NCBI RefSeq assembly: GCF_000444875.1
Contig: NC_021985.1
Span: forward strand, 4,980,170 to 5,044,169
Direction: 5' to 3'
DNA from: Streptomyces collinus Tu 365
GTDB taxonomy: Bacteria > Actinomycetota > Actinomycetes > Streptomycetales > Streptomycetaceae
Length of the DNA: 64,000 nt
Under the pieces are notes generated by a model. It had not been told where the DNA came from, did not search any database, and saw nothing but the letters and a program-made list of their open reading frames with translations. Both the position numbers and the translations under genes were made by a program. Positions 34,279-50,863 of this stretch are shown piece by piece; the stretch's first letter is position 1; the number at the start of each line of letters is the position of its first letter.

Positions 34279-34360
34279 GGCGGTGTGCCCGAGCGGCCAA
34301 AGGGAGCAGACTGTAAATCTGCCGGCTCAGCCTTCCCAGGTTCGAATCCTGGCGCCGCCA
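34279..34360 (+). tRNA. tRNA-Tyr (GTA)
   Basis: An 82-base class II tRNA. The acceptor stem GGCGGTG (34279-34285) pairs with CGCCGCC (34353-34359), with one G-T pair. The anticodon GTA is at 34313-34315 in the loop CTGTAAA. There is a long variable arm and the T-arm CCAGGTTCGAATCCTGG. CCA is not encoded. Its 3' two-thirds from 34308 is duplicated exactly at 50807-50863, so it is the attachment site of the integrated element and is kept functional. Confidence 0.96.
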
Positions 34361-34364
34361 CACG
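34308..34364. repeat. attL core (57-bp direct repeat, left copy)
   Basis: Identical to 50807-50863, starting AGACTGTAAATCTGCCGG and ending CGCCACACG. It runs from the anticodon stem to 4 bases past the tRNA 3' end, so integration rebuilds an intact tRNA-Tyr. Confidence 0.93.
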
Positions 34365-34524: not shown

Positions 34525-35892
34525 CTACCCGCCGTTCTTCAGCGCTCGCTCGATCCGGGCGTTCGCCGTGGCGGCGCCGCCGTCCAGGCACTTGGCGTAC
34601 ACCCGGAACAGTACGGCCACGCTGTGGCCGGCGCGCGCGGCCACTTCCTGCGGCTCCACCCCGGAACTGAGCCATGTGGACACGGCAGCATGCCGAAGGT
34701 CATAAGGACGCTTGGCCAACTGCGACGCGCGCTGAGCGGGCGTGAGGGCCCGTGCGCGAGCTTCTGCCCACACCTCGCCATATCCGGTGTCCTGGATGAG
34801 CCCACCGCGCTGGGTGCGGAACAGGCGTCCGTCTGGGGCGACGCCGTACGCGATGACGTGCCACCGCAGCAGGCTCACGAGGTCGGGCGGGATCGGCACC
34901 GGGCGGACCGCCTTCCGAGGCCGGTGCTTGAGCCCTCGCCGGTCGTGTGCTTCGCCGCTGTCGGTCCATGCTGATCCTGAGCGCGGACGGGTCTCCCGTA
35001 GCCATAGGGTCCCCCACCCTCGGCGGGGGAGGTCGCAGTCCTGTAGGCGGAGGCCGATGACTTCCGCCGGCCGTGCTGCCGCGTAGTACATGCACCCGAA
35101 GAATGCGACCAGGCGGCGCCCGCGGGCGCTCTGTGTGCGCACGGCGTCGAGCAGTGCGAGAGCCTGCCGGGGATCTGGGACCGAGGCCGGGTCCAGTTCC
35201 TCCGCAACCTGCTCCGGAGCCTTCCACTGCACTTGTGGCAGAGGGTTATCCGTCAGTCGGCCGGCGTCGACGGCGTAGCCGAGCGCGTTGTGAAAGATGG
35301 CCCGCTTCCGGCGGATGGTCGACGCGGACGCCGTGGTGCCGTCCAATTTCATGGTCAGGGCGTCCAGGGCGGCGCGCACCTGCATGCGGTCCGCCAGTGC
35401 AGAGGTCGGCAGGGATTTCCGCTCGAACCATGCCAGCACGGCGGCTACCTCGTCCGGCGGTTCTTCGTTCCGGCGGCTCACGTTGAATGCCCAACTGTAG
35501 AGAGCCGTCCGCACCGTCCTAGCGTCGGCCATGCCCTTGCTGTCCTTGACGAGCGCCGGCGTCACCGTGGCCATGGCTTCCGCGAGTGTCCGGCGCGTCG
35601 AGCCGGGGGAGTGCTGCCACTTCATCTCGATGTACTCGCGGGCGTGTTGATACCAACTCACGTCGTTGCGCTGCCGCAGCTCGGAGAGTGGTACGCCGGT
35701 GAACTCGTCGAAGGGCTCGCCGGCGTGTGCCGCGCGCAGAAGTTCAGCGCGTCGCCCCTCTGCCAGCGTCTTTGTGCGGAACGTCTGAGAGTGCGGAGTC
35801 TCGCCTGTCTTCCAGCGCAGCTCTGCGGAGGTTTGGCCCCGGTCTTTCCTCTGCCGTACTGACCAGATGCGAACGTCGTATGTCTTCCCCAT
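34525..35892 (-). CDS. Tyrosine recombinase/integrase of the AICE
   Basis: 455 residues, start ATG 35892 with AGGAAGG upstream. An N-terminal arm-binding domain and a SAM-like core-binding domain (about 75-185) precede the catalytic domain: Arg274 in YAAARPAEVIGLRL, Arg400 in RPYDLRHAAVS, His423 in ARAGHSVAV and the nucleophile Tyr432 in LFRVYAKCL. The first His of the HxxR box is Tyr, as is common in actinobacterial integrases. It recombines the tRNA-Tyr attB with attP. It lies next to attL, oriented toward it. Confidence 0.93.
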   Translation of the reverse strand: MGKTYDVRIWSVRQRKDRGQTSAELRWKTGETPHSQTFRTKTLAEGRRAELLRAAHAGEPFDEFTGVPLSELRQRNDVSWYQHAREYIEMKWQHSPGSTRRTLAEAMATVTPALVKDSKGMADARTVRTALYSWAFNVSRRNEEPPDEVAAVLAWFERKSLPTSALADRMQVRAALDALTMKLDGTTASASTIRRKRAIFHNALGYAVDAGRLTDNPLPQVQWKAPEQVAEELDPASVPDPRQALALLDAVRTQSARGRRLVAFFGCMYYAAARPAEVIGLRLQDCDLPRRGWGTLWLRETRPRSGSAWTDSGEAHDRRGLKHRPRKAVRPVPIPPDLVSLLRWHVIAYGVAPDGRLFRTQRGGLIQDTGYGEVWAEARARALTPAQRASQLAKRPYDLRHAAVSTWLSSGVEPQEVAARAGHSVAVLFRVYAKCLDGGAATANARIERALKNGG

Positions 35893-35964: not shown

Positions 35965-36153
35965 TCAGTAGGCGGGCGAATCCAGGCGGTTGAGCCAGTC
36001 GTCGAGGTCGGTGCGTCGCACCCGCAGGTGGCCGTTGGGCAGCTTCACCAGCCGCGGCCCCTGGCCACGCGCGCGCATGCGGTAGAAGGCGGCGCGGCTC
36101 ATGCTGATCTCTTGGAGGACTTCGGGGAGTTTGAGCATCTTGGTGCTGGCCAA
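35965..36153 (-). CDS. Excisionase-like helix-turn-helix protein
   Basis: About 62 residues. KMLKLPEVLQEISMSRAAFYRMRARGQGPRLVKLPNGHLRVRRTDLDDWLNRL is a MerR/Xis-type winged helix (HTH_17). The start is probably TTG 36153, since AAGGAG lies 8 bases upstream; ATG 36192 and ATG 36138 are alternatives. It lies directly upstream of int on the same strand and would bend attachment DNA for excision. The GTAGCGG repeat cluster begins just upstream of it. Confidence 0.8.
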   Translation of the reverse strand: MASTKMLKLPEVLQEISMSRAAFYRMRARGQGPRLVKLPNGHLRVRRTDLDDWLNRLDSPAY

Positions 36154-36202
36154 GGCGGTGACTCCTTCTTGGGGTGAGGCGTCCGGCGGCACTCTCAGAA
36201 GT

Positions 36203-36404
36203 CCGCTACTTCCGCTACCGCCGCTACCTCGCAGGTCACGGGCCTGTTGGAGGTAGCGGGAAGGGGTAGCGGTAGCGGACGGGTAGCGGTGCGGTAGCGG
36301 CTTCGGATGCCCGTTACCGCTACCGCGTTATCACTGGTCAAGCCGTGTTTTCGGTGCCAGGTAGCGGAGGTAGCGGACTTTCCGGGGGTGGGGGGCAGTA
36401 GCGG
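36203..36404. repeat. GTAGCGG iteron cluster, candidate replication origin
   Basis: Twelve exact copies of GTAGCGG or its complement CCGCTAC plus one variant (CCGTTAC) lie in about 200 bases. Minus-sense copies begin at 36203, 36212, 36221 (9-base spacing) and 36317. Plus-sense copies begin at 36253, 36266, 36272, 36283, 36294, 36361, 36370 and 36398. The array spans the gap between xis and the DUF3631 gene and runs into the 3' end of that gene, where it encodes a Pro-rich tail. This is the layout of an iteron origin or a Xis binding array. Confidence 0.7.
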
Positions 36405-37483
36405 GCCCACGCGTCGTGCAGATCAGCGGCGTAGTAGCCCTTGAGGACGCTTCCGGCGGTCTTGATGTTGCGGGAGGCGATGGGCTCGTTGTCGGCCGTC
36501 ATGTACTCGGCGAGCATCCGGGACAGGCGCCGGTTGTCGAGCGGCTTGCCGTGCAGGTCGGCCCAGGGTGCGTCGTCCAGGGCGTTGAGCCGGTCCAGGA
36601 TGGCGACGGTGGGCAGGCGGTCGATGCCGACCATGACGTGATCGCGTAGATCGGCAAGCAGCCGAATCCCCATGCTGCCCTTGTCGTTGGCCTTGGACGC
36701 CGTCACCAGGGTCACGCATGCTTCCCGAGCCCGCTCGGGCCAAGCACCGCCGGCGGCGTCCGCGACCGCGAGCAGGGGTTCCCATACGTCCGCCGGTCGG
36801 TCGGTGACACCTTCGGGCATGTCCGGCCAGGCGTCCACCACTCGCGCACGTGCCTGTTCGGCCCACTGCGCCAGCCGCTCACGGAGCTTGTGCCCCTGCG
36901 CCTCGTGGATGCGAGCCCGGAACGGTTCCACGCGTTCGTTGCGGGCCCGGCGGCGCATGCGGATGACAACGGAGCGGGTCAGGATCGTGTCGGGCAGGGA
37001 GCCGAGCCCGGCGACCGCGACCGCGCAGTACGAGGGGAACGCCTGCACAGTCTGGTTGCCGCCATCGCCGATACACCGGTAGGTGACCCCGGAGCGGCGG
37101 TGTCCGGCGTTGAGGAACCCGCGCAGTTCCTCGTTGTCCCCCGCCTTCGGCCCGAAGATCGTGTCGATCTCATCGAACAGGATCGTCGGCCGGCCGTTCG
37201 CCCCCGACACCGCGCGGAACAGAGCGGCGGCGGACGCGTTCACGGCCGTCATGGACTGCGGCACCAGCGTTTCCACGATCTCCAGGGCTCGCGACTTGCC
37301 CGATCCCGGCTCGGGGGACAGGAAGGCCAGGCGGGGCGTGGAGTCGAAGCAGTCGAGCAGGTGGGCGTGTGCGTCCCACAGGGCGACGGCGACGTAGGCG
37401 GCCTCGGTGGGGAAGACGTTGAACCGTCGGTGGAAGGCTTCCACCTCGTCCAGCAGCGCGGCCCCGTCCATGGTGGGGGTCAT
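36338..37483 (-). CDS. DUF3631 / AAA-like replication protein
   Basis: 381 residues, start ATG 37483 with AGGGAGGGC upstream. A P-loop is visible in LAFLSPEPGSGKSRALEIVETL and Walker B in PTILFDEIDTIFGPKAGDNEELRGFLNAGH; the DUF3631 domain follows (about 190-370). Such proteins pair with Prim-Pol proteins in AICEs and phages as helicase-like partners. Here the two flank one small gene, with ATGA overlaps throughout. The C-terminus PPPPESPLPPLPG is written by the overlapping iterons. Confidence 0.85.
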   Translation of the reverse strand: MTPTMDGAALLDEVEAFHRRFNVFPTEAAYVAVALWDAHAHLLDCFDSTPRLAFLSPEPGSGKSRALEIVETLVPQSMTAVNASAAALFRAVSGANGRPTILFDEIDTIFGPKAGDNEELRGFLNAGHRRSGVTYRCIGDGGNQTVQAFPSYCAVAVAGLGSLPDTILTRSVVIRMRRRARNERVEPFRARIHEAQGHKLRERLAQWAEQARARVVDAWPDMPEGVTDRPADVWEPLLAVADAAGGAWPERAREACVTLVTASKANDKGSMGIRLLADLRDHVMVGIDRLPTVAILDRLNALDDAPWADLHGKPLDNRRLSRMLAEYMTADNEPIASRNIKTAGSVLKGYYAADLHDAWARYCPPPPESPLPPLPGTENTA

Positions 37484-37911
37484 GCGGCGGCCCTCCCTTC
37501 GGTGGATACGGCGGGCATTCCGGTGCAGGCGGATCGGTGGGCGTCGTACTCGGTGACCAGCGCGGTCACGGCCTGGGGGCCGGTGGCGGTGCTGGTCTGT
37601 CCGCAGGGGCAGGTGTAGGCGGCGGTGGGAGTGTCGCCGGGGCGGGTGGACCAACGGGCGCCGTCCCAGTGGTGGCGGTAGACCGGTGGGGCGTAGATCC
37701 GGATACCGGGCCGCTCCGGGGTGGGGTCGGCCGTGCCGTGCCGGGCTTCGTCGGTCTGGAACCGCTCAGAGCGAAGTGCAGTGACGACGCCCTTGCGGGC
37801 GGCGCCTGTCGGCTCGCCCACGGCTGGCCCGGGCCCGGCTTTCTCGGCGCCGTGCCGGCCGGTGGGTGTCGGGGCTTGGCCTTCCAAGCGGGGAGTGGCG
37901 GGGGCGCTCAT
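37480..37911 (-). CDS. Small AICE protein with Cys pair
   Basis: 143 residues, start ATG 37911, overlapping both neighbours by ATGA. The N-terminal half is Pro/Ala/Gly-rich and basic. The C-terminal half has YRHHWDGARWSTRPGDTPTAAYTCPCGQTSTATG and ends in EYDAHRSACTG, so TCPC...HRSAC could bind zinc. It is not a recognised family. Its placement between Prim-Pol and the DUF3631 helicase suggests an accessory replication role. Confidence 0.65.
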   Translation of the reverse strand: MSAPATPRLEGQAPTPTGRHGAEKAGPGPAVGEPTGAARKGVVTALRSERFQTDEARHGTADPTPERPGIRIYAPPVYRHHWDGARWSTRPGDTPTAAYTCPCGQTSTATGPQAVTALVTEYDAHRSACTGMPAVSTEGRAAA

Positions 37912-38810
37912 GCCGCCTGCCTGGGTCGGGCTTTGCGGATGGAGCCGTCCAGGGCGCTGCGGATGGTGGTGCGGCACTCGGCCGCGGTGAGTCCCACCGC
38001 CTCGCCCGCCCCTTGGAAGGCGTCCTCAACCGTCTGCCGGGGGAGGTCGCCCCACGCGACGAATCGCCCCACCTTGAAGGCGCATCGGTTTAGCACGGTG
38101 TTGCGCAAGCCTTCCGGGGCGGCGGTCACCACCGCGCACTCGGCTTCCAGCGCGGCCAGTGCCGCCCGGCTGCCGCCCACCGCTGGCAGCCGCAGCGACC
38201 CCTCAGGGCGCGCGGGCGCGGGCTCCAGGATGCTCAGCAGCCACGCGGGCAGAGGGGCGGCCAGAGAGGCGCACAGCGCCTCGTACCATCCGGCGGCGGT
38301 GACGCTACCGGCGGCGACGACGTATCCGCCCCACGCGCGGGTGTCGACCGAATCCGCCACGGTGCCCGCCGTGTTGCCCAGCCGGGCGCCCGGCGGGCAG
38401 GTGAAGTAGAGATGCTCTCCACCGCTCGCGGTCCGCACCCGGTAGGTGTTGGGGACGGCGTGTCCGGCGCGCTCGCAGAGCGCTGCAAAGGTGGTCGCGC
38501 CGCAAGGCGCGTCCGAACTGTTCTTGTCCTTGGGCACGTCCAGGTCGATGACGACCAGCCCGGACGGGCCGGTGGCGATGCCGACGTTGAACGGCGCCCG
38601 CGACCATGCGGCGCGGATGCGGGCGGGGTCGGTGGTGGCGCGCTGCTCCCACTTCACGTGCCCGGTCGTGCACGGGTCGGTGCGGGTGCAGGTCTTCTCT
38701 CCGTGCAGGGCGGGCGGCTTGCTGCCGGGCCTGCACGGGAAGACGTGCCAGCCGCGCTCGGCGGCGGTTAAGGCTGCACGGAGCAGCGCGGTTTGGGCGT
38801 CATGGGTCAT
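37908..38810 (-). CDS. Bifunctional DNA primase/polymerase (Prim-Pol)
   Basis: 300 residues, start ATG 38810. The Prim-Pol fold is in the first 190 residues: GWHVFPCRPGSKPP at the start, VVIDLDVPK as the catalytic DxD and ASGGEHLYF as the following His motif. The C-terminal part (FKVGRFVAWGDLPRQTVEDAFQGAG...) is a PriCT-like helical domain. This is one of the three recognised AICE replication types, besides RepSA and RepAM. It should initiate element replication at a nearby origin, plausibly the iterons at 36.2-36.4 kb. Confidence 0.88.
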   Translation of the reverse strand: MTHDAQTALLRAALTAAERGWHVFPCRPGSKPPALHGEKTCTRTDPCTTGHVKWEQRATTDPARIRAAWSRAPFNVGIATGPSGLVVIDLDVPKDKNSSDAPCGATTFAALCERAGHAVPNTYRVRTASGGEHLYFTCPPGARLGNTAGTVADSVDTRAWGGYVVAAGSVTAAGWYEALCASLAAPLPAWLLSILEPAPARPEGSLRLPAVGGSRAALAALEAECAVVTAAPEGLRNTVLNRCAFKVGRFVAWGDLPRQTVEDAFQGAGEAVGLTAAECRTTIRSALDGSIRKARPRQAA

Positions 38811-38899
38811 GCTGGATGTCTCCAGTTCTCTTGATGGTGCTGGGTGACAAGGGCGGCCCCGCGGCTTTGGCGAGACGATGGGGGCCGCCCTTGGCGTAG

Positions 38900-39567: not shown

Positions 39568-41685
39568 CTATCCGGCGTCGGAAGCGGAACCGTCGGTGTC
39601 ACGATGGGCAAGGGCGCGGGCGATGTGGTCGCGGCCGACGACCATGCGGCCGTCGGACTTGTACGGCTCGGCGCCGGTGCCGTCCAGGACGCGGGTGAGG
39701 TCGACGGGCGACCAGGTGCCGTAGGCGTCCGGGTTCAGTACGGAGAGCCGCTTGAGCACGTCCTGGGTGCGCAGCCGCGGGGCGTCGCCGATGACGGCGG
39801 CGATGTCGGCGAGCGGGTCACGCTCCTCGTCGTCGCGTTCGATGGCGTGCAGGGTGGTGACGCCGTCGCGCAGGGCCTTGGCCCGGTCGGTGATGGCTTC
39901 GGCGGTGGCGTCGTCGATGAAGTGCGTGCGCACGGTGATGGAGGACTGGCCGGCCGGGATGGTGATGCCGTCGGAGGCGACGACCAGGGTGCCCCGGTCC
40001 AGCCCTGGGCGCAGCAGGTTCGGGGCGGCGCCGCCGTCCACGGCCTTGTCGCCCAGCGCCATGCGGGCCTGCGATTCGGTGCCGAGTGCGAGGGAGGCGC
40101 GGGTGTGGGCGCCCTCGCGGACCAGCTTGGGCAGGTTCTCGTTGGTGGGGTCCTGGGTGCCCTGCCACATCAGGACGTTGACGGCGCGGCCCTGGTTGTG
40201 GATTTTGCGGACGGCCATGAAGTACCGGGAGTTGGCCTTGGCGCCGCCGTAGGGGCGCTTGTCCTCGTCCTTGGCCGGGCACATGAACGCGACCTGTGCC
40301 TCATCGACCAGCACGATCAGCGGCGGGAACTGGGTGCCGGGCGGGGCCTGGATGCGGCGGTTCATCTCGTCCACCGCGCCTTCGACCATCTCGGTCACCT
40401 GGATCACGTGCTCATCGGTGGGGCCCTGGATGAGGGTGAGGGCGAGGCCGTCGAACATCTTCCAGTCGCCCACGCCCTTGAGGTCACCCATGAGGAACTG
40501 CACCGACTTGTCCAGGGACAGCCACAGCGCCAGGGACCGCAGGGCCACGGTCTTGCCCTGGTTCGACAGGCCGGTGATGAGCAGGTGCCGCTGATACAGG
40601 CTCAAGTTCGCGGCGTCGCCGCGCAGGTCCTGACCCCACGGCGCTTTGCCCTTGGCGTAGTCGGCGGTCATCGTGTCGTCGGTGGCCAGCGGGGACGGGC
40701 CGATCGGCTCGTCCAGCGCCCCGGAGTCGGCCACCCACAGCCGCACTGTGCGGGCGGCGGTCGGGATGGTGATGAACACCTCGTGCTCGTGCCGGGACAG
40801 GTTCTCAGCGAGCTTCCGACGCCGGTTCTGCACCTCGATCGTGGACACCCCCGACGGGAGGGTGACGTCGACTTCCACGCCGCATCCGGCGATGACGATC
40901 GGGGACAGCATCGACGCACCCGCGTCGCCCATCTCCTGAATCGCCTTACGCAGGGCAGGTACCCCCAGGTCGCGTAGGGCCTTGACCACGATCGACGGGG
41001 TGATCGGCTCGCCCTCACCGTTGCGGACGCCTGCCGGCAGTGCCCACTGGGGTGCGGCCTGTTGGTGGGCCCCGACGGACCACAGGGCGAGCAGGGCGAG
41101 GAACGGGCCGACCGTCAGGGCCGGTCCCCACACCACTTGCACGATGGTGATCAGCAGGTTGATGAACTTGATGACCGCCATGAGCGGAGTGACGACCTCG
41201 GTGGCGTCCTTGGTGGCGATGGCCATCGCGACGCCGAGCAGGACCAGTCCACCGACGCCCATACCGGCGCTCACGGCCGCGCCCTTGGCCGCGTCCAGCG
41301 GCGAGTGCAGCAGGTCCATGCGGCGGCGGTGGCGGGCGTCGCGGAATCGCTGCCCCCGCTCCTCCCACTCGGCAGCCGCCTCGAAGTTCCCCGCGGCTTC
41401 AGCGGCGCGGAGCATGCGCTCGTACCGGGCGGCGGTGCGACCGTCCCACGCCCGGCGGCCCACGATCCGCGCGCCCCCGAGGACGTACAGGCTGTGCCGG
41501 GCGACCGTGCGCGCGGCCGTCCTGGTGGCCTCGTGGGTGACGGCCGTGCGTACGGCGCGTCCGGACCGGAGCCACAGGGGGACCGGCGGTGCGGCCGGCG
41601 GGTCGGGGACCACGGTCAGTGTGGTCACGGGCGGGTCGGGCTCGGGGTTGGTGTCTTTGTGCAGGTGGACGACGTTGCCGCTCAT
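39568..41685 (-). CDS. traB: FtsK/SpoIIIE-type DNA translocase TraB
   Basis: 705 residues. Two or more membrane helices at about 136-158 and 170-202 are followed by a hexameric motor: Walker A GLSNQGKT (372-379) and Walker B LIVLVDEAQ (456-464). The C-terminal 80 residues (about 620-700, RLRTQDVLKRL...RMVVGRDHIARALA) look like the winged helix that reads 8-bp transfer repeats. Members move double-stranded DNA between hyphae as a single protein. Start ATG 41685. Confidence 0.9.
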   Translation of the reverse strand: MSGNVVHLHKDTNPEPDPPVTTLTVVPDPPAAPPVPLWLRSGRAVRTAVTHEATRTAARTVARHSLYVLGGARIVGRRAWDGRTAARYERMLRAAEAAGNFEAAAEWEERGQRFRDARHRRRMDLLHSPLDAAKGAAVSAGMGVGGLVLLGVAMAIATKDATEVVTPLMAVIKFINLLITIVQVVWGPALTVGPFLALLALWSVGAHQQAAPQWALPAGVRNGEGEPITPSIVVKALRDLGVPALRKAIQEMGDAGASMLSPIVIAGCGVEVDVTLPSGVSTIEVQNRRRKLAENLSRHEHEVFITIPTAARTVRLWVADSGALDEPIGPSPLATDDTMTADYAKGKAPWGQDLRGDAANLSLYQRHLLITGLSNQGKTVALRSLALWLSLDKSVQFLMGDLKGVGDWKMFDGLALTLIQGPTDEHVIQVTEMVEGAVDEMNRRIQAPPGTQFPPLIVLVDEAQVAFMCPAKDEDKRPYGGAKANSRYFMAVRKIHNQGRAVNVLMWQGTQDPTNENLPKLVREGAHTRASLALGTESQARMALGDKAVDGGAAPNLLRPGLDRGTLVVASDGITIPAGQSSITVRTHFIDDATAEAITDRAKALRDGVTTLHAIERDDEERDPLADIAAVIGDAPRLRTQDVLKRLSVLNPDAYGTWSPVDLTRVLDGTGAEPYKSDGRMVVGRDHIARALAHRDTDGSASDAG

Positions 41686-45906: not shown

Positions 45907-47378
45907 ATCGGCGAATTGTGATCACCGTCATTACTGCCGTCGATGAGCGGTTGGTGGTAACTGGGCATCCGCTGCTCTAGCTGTGCAATTTCTTCGTTCA
46001 GGACGTCGCGTTCCATCGCTAGCTGCTGGCGCCGCCCAAGGAGCGAAATGGGTGCATTGGCACCCTGTTCGCGAATTTTTTCATCCAGTTCGGCCAGATG
46101 CGTATTCATTGCATCGAGTCGGCCACGGGTGTAGGCAAGCTTGTGCTGAGACTCCTTAGAAGGGCGAGGTGTCCCGACCTGAGTGGATTTCTCCCTTCTG
46201 TCAGTAGAGGAATTCAAATCGCCCAGGAGTGCTCTAAGATCTTCCGTCATTTCCCAATCCCGCCGCGAGATATTGAGTGCTACTGACCCGTCGGGCAATT
46301 CTTCGATGCTCCTCTCGATGAGGTACAGGAGCTGATCTGCCCGATTCGCGATTGTGCGTGCGGCTCGGACTCGGCTTGGATTGCGTCCGGGTGAGATCGT
46401 TTCCTCATGAAAATGATCCCTTATCTTCAAGAGGTCAACCATCAGGGCGTTGAATTCGTCCGGGTGTAGGTGCAAGGTTTTGGTGTTGGAACTACCCTCT
46501 TGCGCCTGGGCGACGGTGGACTCGCTGACGATCGCCCCTAGCTCAGACTTAGCGACCTTCAGAAACGTTCCCAAATCGGTTAGCAAGAAATCCTGGCCAC
46601 AGCGCTCCTTAAACTCAGAAATCAGCTTAGGGTGGGGACCAATCGTTAGTCCGGCCTCGCTGTAAACCCAATCGTCCTTAGTGTCATTCGTTACTAAAAT
46701 CACTGGCATTTCGCGGAGTTTGGCCTCGCGCAATACTTGCTCCCAGACGAAATAATCACCGTGGGCATTGTCTGCCTTGCCTGAGTCTCGATATCCCGGC
46801 GGGATCCTATCGCCTGCTCGCGTGCTGTAATTCTCTAGGAACTCCTTTTCTTCTTCGTCGGCGAACGGCGCTCCGACCTTCTGATCGAAGATATCAGCCA
46901 ATGACTGCAGGATTGGGTCATCGGTGATGACCTTAACCAAATCCAAATCAAACGCGTCACCATGGCGTTTGATTTCGTCTATTGCCATATCGAATGCCTT
47001 GTTTAGGGGATCGATCAACGCCCTCTTTTCCTCTGGAGACATGGAGCGCCGCTTGGTGAAGGTGTTGATCTCTTGGATCGCTTTGTTCCTTGATTCATTC
47101 AACACCTTGGGGACGGTCGTGTAGAGGGCGATGTGCTCCTTTATGGCATCAACTCGACGAGAATAATACTCCTTCACCACCTGATGGGAGACCCACAAGC
47201 GATCTTCCAGTTTTGTCAGAGCCTGCAAAAGCTCGTCACGCGCTTGAGGGGTGAATCTATATAGATTCAGCAGGACGTTAGTGTCGAGCGTTACGAGATA
47301 CTCGGTAACTCCTTTCTTGTAGTCTTCCGTTGACCTTCTCCACATTCCTTCGAACCCTGTCAGGAAGGAAGATTCCAT
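45903..47378 (-). CDS. PIN-like domain protein (possible defence cargo)
   Basis: 491 residues, ATG 47378. VTLDTNVLLNLYRF (first Asp of a PIN nuclease), WVSHQVVKEYYSRR (conserved Glu), GKADNAHGDYFVWEQVL and PVILVTNDTKDDWVY (later Asp residues) give the complete acidic set of the PIN_8/DUF4935 type. The C-terminal 200 residues are helical, with a coiled coil (LAYTRGRLDAMNTHLAELDEKIREQG...LAMERDVLNEEIAQLEQRM). Base composition is clearly less GC-rich than the neighbours, so it is a recent import. It is probably an RNA or DNA nuclease in anti-phage or abortive functions; this is inference. Confidence 0.75.
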   Translation of the reverse strand: MESSFLTGFEGMWRRSTEDYKKGVTEYLVTLDTNVLLNLYRFTPQARDELLQALTKLEDRLWVSHQVVKEYYSRRVDAIKEHIALYTTVPKVLNESRNKAIQEINTFTKRRSMSPEEKRALIDPLNKAFDMAIDEIKRHGDAFDLDLVKVITDDPILQSLADIFDQKVGAPFADEEEKEFLENYSTRAGDRIPPGYRDSGKADNAHGDYFVWEQVLREAKLREMPVILVTNDTKDDWVYSEAGLTIGPHPKLISEFKERCGQDFLLTDLGTFLKVAKSELGAIVSESTVAQAQEGSSNTKTLHLHPDEFNALMVDLLKIRDHFHEETISPGRNPSRVRAARTIANRADQLLYLIERSIEELPDGSVALNISRRDWEMTEDLRALLGDLNSSTDRREKSTQVGTPRPSKESQHKLAYTRGRLDAMNTHLAELDEKIREQGANAPISLLGRRQQLAMERDVLNEEIAQLEQRMPSYHQPLIDGSNDGDHNSPI

Positions 47379-48028
47379 TTCGTGACCCCCAGGAAGGTGT
47401 GCCCGCGCATCGACAAGGTAGCTCAATGGGGGCAACTGCCGGGCCTACTTGCGAAATATCGGTAGGGTTAATTGTGTGGCCTGTAGCCAGCTTCGTCCGA
47501 GATGGGCGGCCTGGCCGCTCCCTCCAGTGCATTGGAGGTCAGGGGCAGGGCTTGGCTAATCCAAGGGCCTCCGAAGCCGCCTAACCAACTGCGTAAGGCC
47601 GGGGCAACTGACGCGTCCGTACACGCTGACGGCAGCCTTCGACGGCAACAGCGGCGGCGGTGCCGTATCAGATGAGACAGCCTCCCACCTCGCAGGGCGG
47701 CCGCCGACGCGACTCTGACACTGGCGCCAGGGCGTGCGGAAGGAACTAGAAAGGCGGCGGTCTTGCGCCAGCCGATGGCGGATCGTCCCGGCTTGGCATG
47801 AGGCCTCTGCCCCTGGTCTCAGTTGCAGTCCCAGTTGACACTAATTCCGAGGTGGTTCGTTTCTGTCCACGGCCGTCTGGCACGGCGCCTGACCAGCGGC
47901 GCAAGGCTCATGACAGATGTCCGTGGACACGTCCGGACCAAGATCTGACAACTCGTAATGCGTAGTCCTTGCGGACAGGTAGGAAGACCCATCCCTCCCC
48001 TGGTCTCCAGGGGAGGGCCTGCCGAGGA
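47379..48028. other. Intergenic region between PIN-like and restriction genes
   Basis: 650 bases with no convincing coding frame on either strand. The only clear structure is the hairpin CCCTCCCCTGG-TCT-CCAGGGGAGGG at 47993-48017, which would terminate the restriction gene transcript. Confidence 0.5.
47993..48017 (-). terminator. Hairpin terminator after restriction gene
   Basis: A perfect 11-bp stem with a 3-base loop, 12 bases downstream of the minus-strand stop at 48029. Confidence 0.7.
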
Positions 48029-50806: not shown

Positions 50807-50863
50807 AGACTGTAAATCTGCCGGCTCAGCCTTCCCAGGTTCGAATCCTGGCGCCGCCACACG
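50807..50863. repeat. attR core (57-bp direct repeat, right copy)
   Basis: Exact copy of 34308-34364. Because an integrase remnant with the same spacing of terminator and arm repeats follows, this site also served as attL of an older element. Confidence 0.93.

Follow-up and report, generated by a model that had tools for sequence, protein, structure and literature searches.

The alpha protein of phage P4 is a helicase-primase initiator that binds short iterons in two orientations; it is a single polypeptide, and its helicase belongs to a different family from the protein considered here. Classical iteron origins usually contain a DnaA box and an AT-rich stretch. The Streptomyces Prim-Pol plasmids pWTY27 and pFP11 combine a Prim-Pol gene with a second rep gene and adjacent repeats in both orientations, as does the present locus, and the accessible description states that Rep binds the repeats in origins of this iteron type (PMC3583192). 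In the Salmonella genomic island SGI1, an iteron oriV is likewise described between the rep and xis genes of an integrative element, but with 17-bp iterons, a putative DnaA box, AT-rich regions, and another type of Rep (PMC7433901). RepAM of pMEA300 belongs to the same PF12307 (DUF3631) family as the protein studied here and is reported to be responsible for autonomous replication of pMEA300. The comparison with RepAM is by description only; the accessible text yielded no description of an iteron origin, and it predicts rolling-circle replication (PMC3218068).

An iteron-like array beside the DUF3631 gene

The window, i.e., the whole 64-kb stretch of DNA analysed here, contains a 16.5-kb AICE integrated at a tRNA-Tyr gene (34279-34361). 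Its limits and main genes are as follows.

34308-34364, plus strand: att repeat at the 3' end of tRNA-Tyr, a 57-bp exact direct repeat with its second copy at 50807-50863; the two mark the AICE limits
34525-35892, minus strand: tyrosine integrase (PF00589, E 7.8e-06; score 26.2 bits, cut-off 27.1)
35965-36192, minus strand: xis-like HTH_17/AlpA gene, start uncertain (PF12728 and PF05930 above cut-off)
36338-37483, minus strand: DUF3631 (RepAM-type) AAA+ protein of 381 aa (PF12307, E 4.2e-63)
37911-38861, minus strand, approximate limits: Prim-Pol primase/polymerase (PF09250, E 2.1e-46)
39568-41685, minus strand: TraB/FtsK-type transfer ATPase (PF01580, E 2.3e-07)

The order on the minus strand is the TraB/FtsK-type gene, Prim-Pol, a small unnamed gene, DUF3631, the array, xis, and int. 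Within the element, PF01580, PF12307, and PF09250 scored above cut-off and PF00589 just below. The element has the composition by which AICEs are defined (att repeats, in many cases located at a tRNA gene, that enclose an integrase, an FtsK/SpoIIIE Tra protein, and a replication module), and its PF12307 protein identifies the replication module as the RepAM (DUF3631) type. A PIN_8-domain protein encoded within 46000-47435 of the window is cargo of the AICE.

The array comprises 12 exact copies of GTAGCGG/CCGCTAC in 202 bp (36203-36404; exact match count over the 64-kb window), four on the minus strand (36203, 36212, 36221, and 36317) and eight on the plus strand (36253, 36266, 36272, 36283, 36294, 36361, 36370, and 36398), together with a non-repeat box, TGACCTGC. 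Exact 9-bp spacing between heptamers occurs three times, and one additional site, at 36311, carries a single mismatch. The preliminary description had claimed 12 exact heptamers in both orientations with several at 9-base spacing, and this is confirmed. The remaining 63.8 kb of the window contain eight copies, which corresponds to 0.025 expected per 202 bp and a Poisson P of ~1e-28 for 12. When the density of all heptamers was scanned over the 64 kb, the top-ranking 202-bp windows all fell at the array, and no second array was found. The 241-bp array stretch is single-copy in its own genome. The parts of the array are listed below.

36203-36227, minus strand: distal iteron block, made up of three heptamers spaced 9 bp apart, geometry kept in relatives
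36231-36238, minus strand: invariant box TGACCTGC, conserved beside the arrays of relatives
36253-36300, plus strand: central iteron block, five heptamers (36253, 36266, 36272, 36283, and 36294), exact matches
36317-36323, minus strand: central inverted heptamer, exact match, with the one-mismatch site at 36311 nearby
36361-36376, plus strand: proximal iteron pair in the DUF3631 coding tail, which gives PLPPLP via two CTA codons
36398-36404, plus strand: heptamer on the DAWARYC codons, probably not an iteron

The array had been placed beside xis and over the end of the DUF3631 gene. This position holds, with qualifications: nine of the 12 heptamers are intergenic, between the DUF3631 stop codon (which begins at 36338) and xis, and three (36361, 36370, and 36398) lie inside the gene. 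The heptamer at 36398 coincides with the codons of a conserved protein motif, DAWxRYC, in which W359, R361, and C363 are invariant, and it is missing in some relatives. It is probably a by-product of this motif rather than an iteron, which leaves 11 likely iteron sites.

Multiple short repeats beside a putative initiator gene are a defining feature of an iteron origin, and the array shows them. Nevertheless, between 36150 and 36450 we found no AT-rich stretch (no 20-mer fell below 50% GC), and a search for DnaA-like boxes that allowed two mismatches was negative, so the array, although iteron-like, is not classed with the classical DnaA-dependent iteron origins.

Conservation of the array across DUF3631 loci

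Of 295 genomes in the genus, 154 gave a DUF3631 match in a protein search. Each of the 30 best loci, the window included, carried an array at the 3' end of the DUF3631 gene. In the closest relatives, the heptamer positions relative to the stop codon were identical to the base, while the spacers and the sequence beyond differed. For a larger set, which is a subset of the DUF3631 matches listed, 120 stretches were fetched, and 117 of these had a counted DUF3631 gene (88 array-class and 29 distant); with the window, 118 loci were classed, 89 as Prim-Pol type and 29 as distant. L111, where DUF3631 is decayed and an array is present, was left out of the counts, L110 and L151 lack DUF3631, and the locus-by-locus analysis leaves out L154-L179 and L189-L218. 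"Prim-Pol type" is the name of a clade; the HMM search found no Prim-Pol in the stretches of L042, L066, L105, and L106.

Every one of the 89 loci with a full-length Prim-Pol-type DUF3631 had a single heptamer repeated five or more times at the 3' end of that gene: CCGCTAC in 71, CCGCCAC in 10, CCGCAAC in five, and CGGTTAC in three. Absence from close relatives with the same Rep had been named beforehand as evidence that would speak against an origin; the array was present at all 30 of the best loci and at all 89 of the Prim-Pol type. At 18 of the 89 loci, the sites had switched together to another heptamer (loci of the CCGCAAC class also contain CCGCCAC sites), and this concerted replacement covers 5-15 sites per locus.

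In the 29 distant loci (~42% identity), none of the four class heptamers reached the threshold of at least five copies, and neither Prim-Pol nor TraB was found in the fetched stretches. The box, searched as TGACC[T/A]GC in either orientation from stop-150 to +450, was present at 79 of 89 array-class loci and at all 29 distant loci, compared with 19.9% and 13.3%, respectively, of same-length control windows; the exact box is missing from 10 of the 89 array loci. At the origin, a box was followed by a pair of 7-mers (8-10-bp spacing, at least six of seven letters agreeing) in 99 of 121 array-class and 50 of 55 distant cases, against 53 of 433 and 7 of 92 for boxes elsewhere. The distant clade thus has the same plan with other repeats, e.g., ACTCGTC. 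One distant DUF3631 match was found among phages. At L183 (7584-9947), a single open frame matches both Prim-Pol and DUF3631, possibly a fusion or a deletion product.

The theta plasmid pFP11 carries CCCCTGACCTGC next to GGGACGC repeats (L246, 8294-8570). Its repeats differ from those of the AICE, and its second protein, unlike that of the AICE, is not DUF3631 (no PF12307 match; hhalign probability 1.7%). That pFP11 has this box but no DUF3631 as its second replication protein suggests a different factor as the user of the box. In addition, the same AICE gene set (int, an xis-like gene, DUF3631, Prim-Pol, and a Tra gene) makes up two circular plasmid records from Streptomyces, of 14,273 and 13,544 bp, which also have the array; these fit autonomous replication of the module, although they are suggestive only.

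The overlap with the coding sequence was then compared among the 89 loci. At 84 of them, the final 49 codons of DUF3631 contain two or more heptamers of the class in question. These coding-tail heptamers fall in all three frames and both directions and encode PLP, SAT, or other peptides. CTA accounts for 123 of 343 leucine codons in the last 50 DUF3631 codons, 22 of 2,674 in the gene body, and 11 of 1,088 in sampled genes of the window. Since the peptide varies with the frame and is written with rare CTA codons, these comparisons indicate that it is the DNA rather than the peptide that is conserved in the overlap. The preliminary description had regarded the Pro-rich C-terminus as a by-product of the origin; this is supported for PLPPLP, where heptamers read as PLP (elsewhere SAT) with rare CTA codons, but not for CPPPP, which precedes the heptamers.

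Heptamer class and the neighbouring proteins

We asked how often a locus and its nearest relative, judged by each protein in turn, share a heptamer class. Agreement was 85 of 89 for DUF3631 (shuffled mean 57.9, maximum 70) and 64 of 84 for Prim-Pol (shuffled mean 56.1, maximum 69). For Int (12 of 25; shuffled 12.1) and Xis (13 of 25; shuffled 12.2), it was at chance in these small samples, and a special link to Xis is not supported. When only the minority classes were considered, agreement was 15 of 18 for DUF3631, 4 of 16 for Prim-Pol, 2 of 8 for Int, 2 of 8 for Xis, and 0 of 3 for TraB. On the DUF3631 tree, the class changes five times, compared with a shuffled mean of 15.6 and a shuffled minimum of 13. 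The Prim-Pol tree has 14 changes against 15.7, a faint signal (21 of 500 shuffles gave 14 or fewer). The Int tree has seven against 7.6 (155 of 500 shuffles as low), and the Xis tree, with 19 rows, five against 4.9 (500 of 500 as low). The TraB tree of 46 loci has three changes, as in shuffles, and includes only three minority-class loci.

Of the four proteins Prim-Pol, DUF3631, Xis, and Int, only DUF3631 co-varies with heptamer class. This is the behaviour expected of a replication origin and strengthens the earlier proposal that the array is a candidate for one. The array touches the DUF3631 gene, and linkage inflates this co-variation; no co-variation is seen with Xis, which flanks the array on the opposite side, and linkage to the DUF3631 3' end leaves the joint change of 5-15 scattered sites unexplained.

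The same data bear on two other functions. Heptamers in the regulatory region of xis-int could be sites for Xis or for a regulator that times excision. The array does lie upstream of xis on the same strand, and in the AICE pSAM2, rep, xis, and int reportedly form an operon under pra. However, repeats serving as arm or operator sites would follow the type of Xis or Int, and heptamer class is random relative to both: at L099, Int and Xis are 96% and 84% identical to those of the window and DUF3631 is 68% identical, and the array is of the CCGCCAC class. In addition, some heptamers lie inside the gene upstream, and elements with unrelated neighbours also have the module, so that a regulatory role is highly improbable. 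The heptamers could instead form a clt transfer locus, recognised by TraB to guide conjugation of double-stranded DNA. Streptomyces clt loci are likewise described as clusters of short repeats, and one such locus extends over the end of its tra gene (PMC3583192); traB is 3.2 kb from the array. Nevertheless, the array is attached to DUF3631 and not to traB, TraB proteins ~90% identical are accompanied by different heptamers (L113 vs L035), and a TraB ~27% identical to that of the window (L035) by the same heptamer. The repeats are thus not specific to the TraB of the element, as far as the three comparable minority-class loci allow, and we consider a clt locus very unlikely.

We consider it very probable that the array is the oriV of the Prim-Pol/DUF3631 AICE, of the iteron type and read by DUF3631. 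This reading is supported by the anatomy of the array, conservation at the DNA level, the concerted change of repeats, co-variation with DUF3631 only, and a half-module in elements without DUF3631. Points against it are the lack of an AT-rich stretch and of a DnaA-like box, the linkage noted above, the faint Prim-Pol signal, the 10 array loci with no exact box, and the earlier prediction of rolling-circle replication for RepAM (PMC3218068, accessible text). Rolling-circle replication of that pC194-like kind would call for an HUH/Tyr nickase and a nick site; Pfam gave no nickase family for the proteins of the module, and the structural model of DUF3631 is an AAA+ fold. Within a limited literature search, we found no earlier description of such a DUF3631 origin.

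The model of the DUF3631 protein of the window (pLDDT 84.8, pTM 0.71, 69 sequences) is nearest to MCM helicases, with a best match at Z 17.0 (7.4 A, 299 residues) and the next at Z 16.8 (3.1 A, 236 residues). By sequence, no solved structure was matched at E 0.01, and searches of NCBIfam and PHROGs gave no name. C-terminal to the AAA+ fold, the model has helices as well as a beta hairpin (338-341 and 346-351), and from this secondary structure the C-terminal part is predicted to be a winged helix. The alignment columns most informative about class are residues 346 and 339, both in the hairpin. Residue 346 is V in the CTAC class, F or T in CCAC, and T in CAAC; residue 339 is N or S in CTAC and G in both CCAC and CAAC. 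Furthermore, L117 (CTAC) and L107 (CAAC) share 93% identity, and of the 26 positions at which they differ, five are within 339-346 (P 6e-05 for clustering in the 8-residue hairpin, a window chosen after the fact). The heptamers lie outside the codons of these residues (36446-36469). A comparison of closely related pairs that differ in class was diffuse, with 344 and 346 in the top 15 and many positions outside the wing as well. Residues 339-346 may set heptamer specificity.

We propose that DUF3631 (RepAM) is the initiator, a predicted MCM-like AAA+ ATPase that would read the heptamers via its C-terminal winged helix. On the excised circle, the inverted heptamer blocks beside the TGACCTGC box would nucleate DUF3631 multimers, which may open the duplex and serve as the helicase, after which Prim-Pol would prime. 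The box would perhaps be used by a host factor or by Prim-Pol.

Array-only elements and candidate satellites

Heptamer triplets alone were rejected as an origin marker, as they also occur in unrelated coding repeats (e.g., at L151). A long tandem array of CCGCTA hexamers (G080:C1:3207621-3207805), for example, gave 67 overlapping pattern matches and is apparently unrelated to origins. Box plus paired heptamers was therefore used, with the pattern TGACCTGC-N3-GTAGCGG-N2-GTAGCGG at up to one mismatch and the same pattern read backwards as a control. The pattern was found in 55 of 291 genomes, and the control had no match in any genome among the matches listed. When coordinates were compared by eye, the pattern matches listed fell at DUF3631 genes, intact or decayed; the exceptions were those of G057 and, in G165, five of six.

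The portion corresponding to 36203-36278 recurs as a module in array-only elements. In four genomes (G057, G165, Streptomyces typhae, and G429), half-modules of several classes adjoin one another and then follow in inverted orientation. L110 (7063-7983) combines CTACC with CTACA types, and there are CTACC, CTACA, and CCGCCAC types at L180 (G165:C1:8242838-8252300), the same three plus a TGCGTCA array at L188 (3697-4973), and CCGCCAC, CCGCTAC, and TGAGTCG at L219 (4987-13149). A short Prim-Pol remnant (53 bits) lies between the arrays of L110. L180 and L219 are delimited by tRNA-Arg 3'-end repeats of 44 bp, 9.4 kb apart, and of 42 bp, 8.1 kb apart, respectively, and the HMM search found no DUF3631, Prim-Pol, or TraB in either. 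These two att-delimited elements have the features of satellites, namely an int gene and att sites of their own, neither replication nor transfer genes, and cis sites shared with a helper; the count leaves out L221, which looks decayed, and L235, in which no integrase was detected. Arrays of TGCGTCA/TGACGCA with TGACC[T/A]GC boxes were also seen at L188 (4299-4493) and L245 (12143-12351), and GCTAGC-rich repeats near arrays or protein X (L219, 7140-7260; L244, 7050-7250) are possibly a further origin class.

A protein that we call protein X is common to L110 (4186-5265), L180 (13018-13929), and L219 (10055-10879) and is also present at L244 and L245. It occurs in four of 291 genomes (G057, G165, G023, and G168). 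The copies of L219 and L110 had no Pfam, NCBIfam, or PHROG match, and no names were obtained for the satellite proteins in NCBIfam and PHROGs. The X locus of G023 has a TGCGTCA array with boxes, and that of G168 has only other repeats, without known heptamers. G057 and G165 contain, besides the array-only elements, full loci with CCGCTAC arrays (L069 and L073, respectively).

Judged by their sequences, the array-only elements look like satellites with origins for several helpers. They could also serve as sponges, and this bears on a further explanation, in which the array contains incompatibility or copy-control sites only, DUF3631 being titrated by the array and initiation occurring elsewhere. 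Iteron-bound Rep can switch origins off in SGI1, according to the accessible description (PMC7433901). However, no other array was found in the window, and the architecture of inverted blocks plus box is kept down to the DUF3631 clade of only ~42% identity; we regard control sites alone as very unlikely.

For the oriV reading, the satellites can be set out as follows. A satellite (8.1 and 9.4 kb where delimited) would comprise int, xis, usually a GntR regulator, and protein X, with no initiator, primase, or transfer ATPase. Half-origins of up to four classes in one element would resemble a key ring for several helper initiators. A switchable code of wing and heptamer would keep AICEs compatible, and satellites would read across it. 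The chances are about even that Streptomyces chromosomes harbour a family of small satellites that hijack AICE replication through multi-class half-origins and that the DUF3631 wing and the heptamer form such a switchable initiator-origin code.

These results provide an exact candidate origin for the Prim-Pol/DUF3631 AICEs; the papers found say little about how such elements replicate. They also name a probable initiator together with residues on which its specificity may depend. AICE compatibility could be explained simply by the classes of heptamer, which would also be a marker for typing, and the origin module could serve orthogonal Streptomyces vectors. If the array-only elements are satellites, they would represent a new kind of parasite of conjugative elements, one that carries several alternative origins at once.
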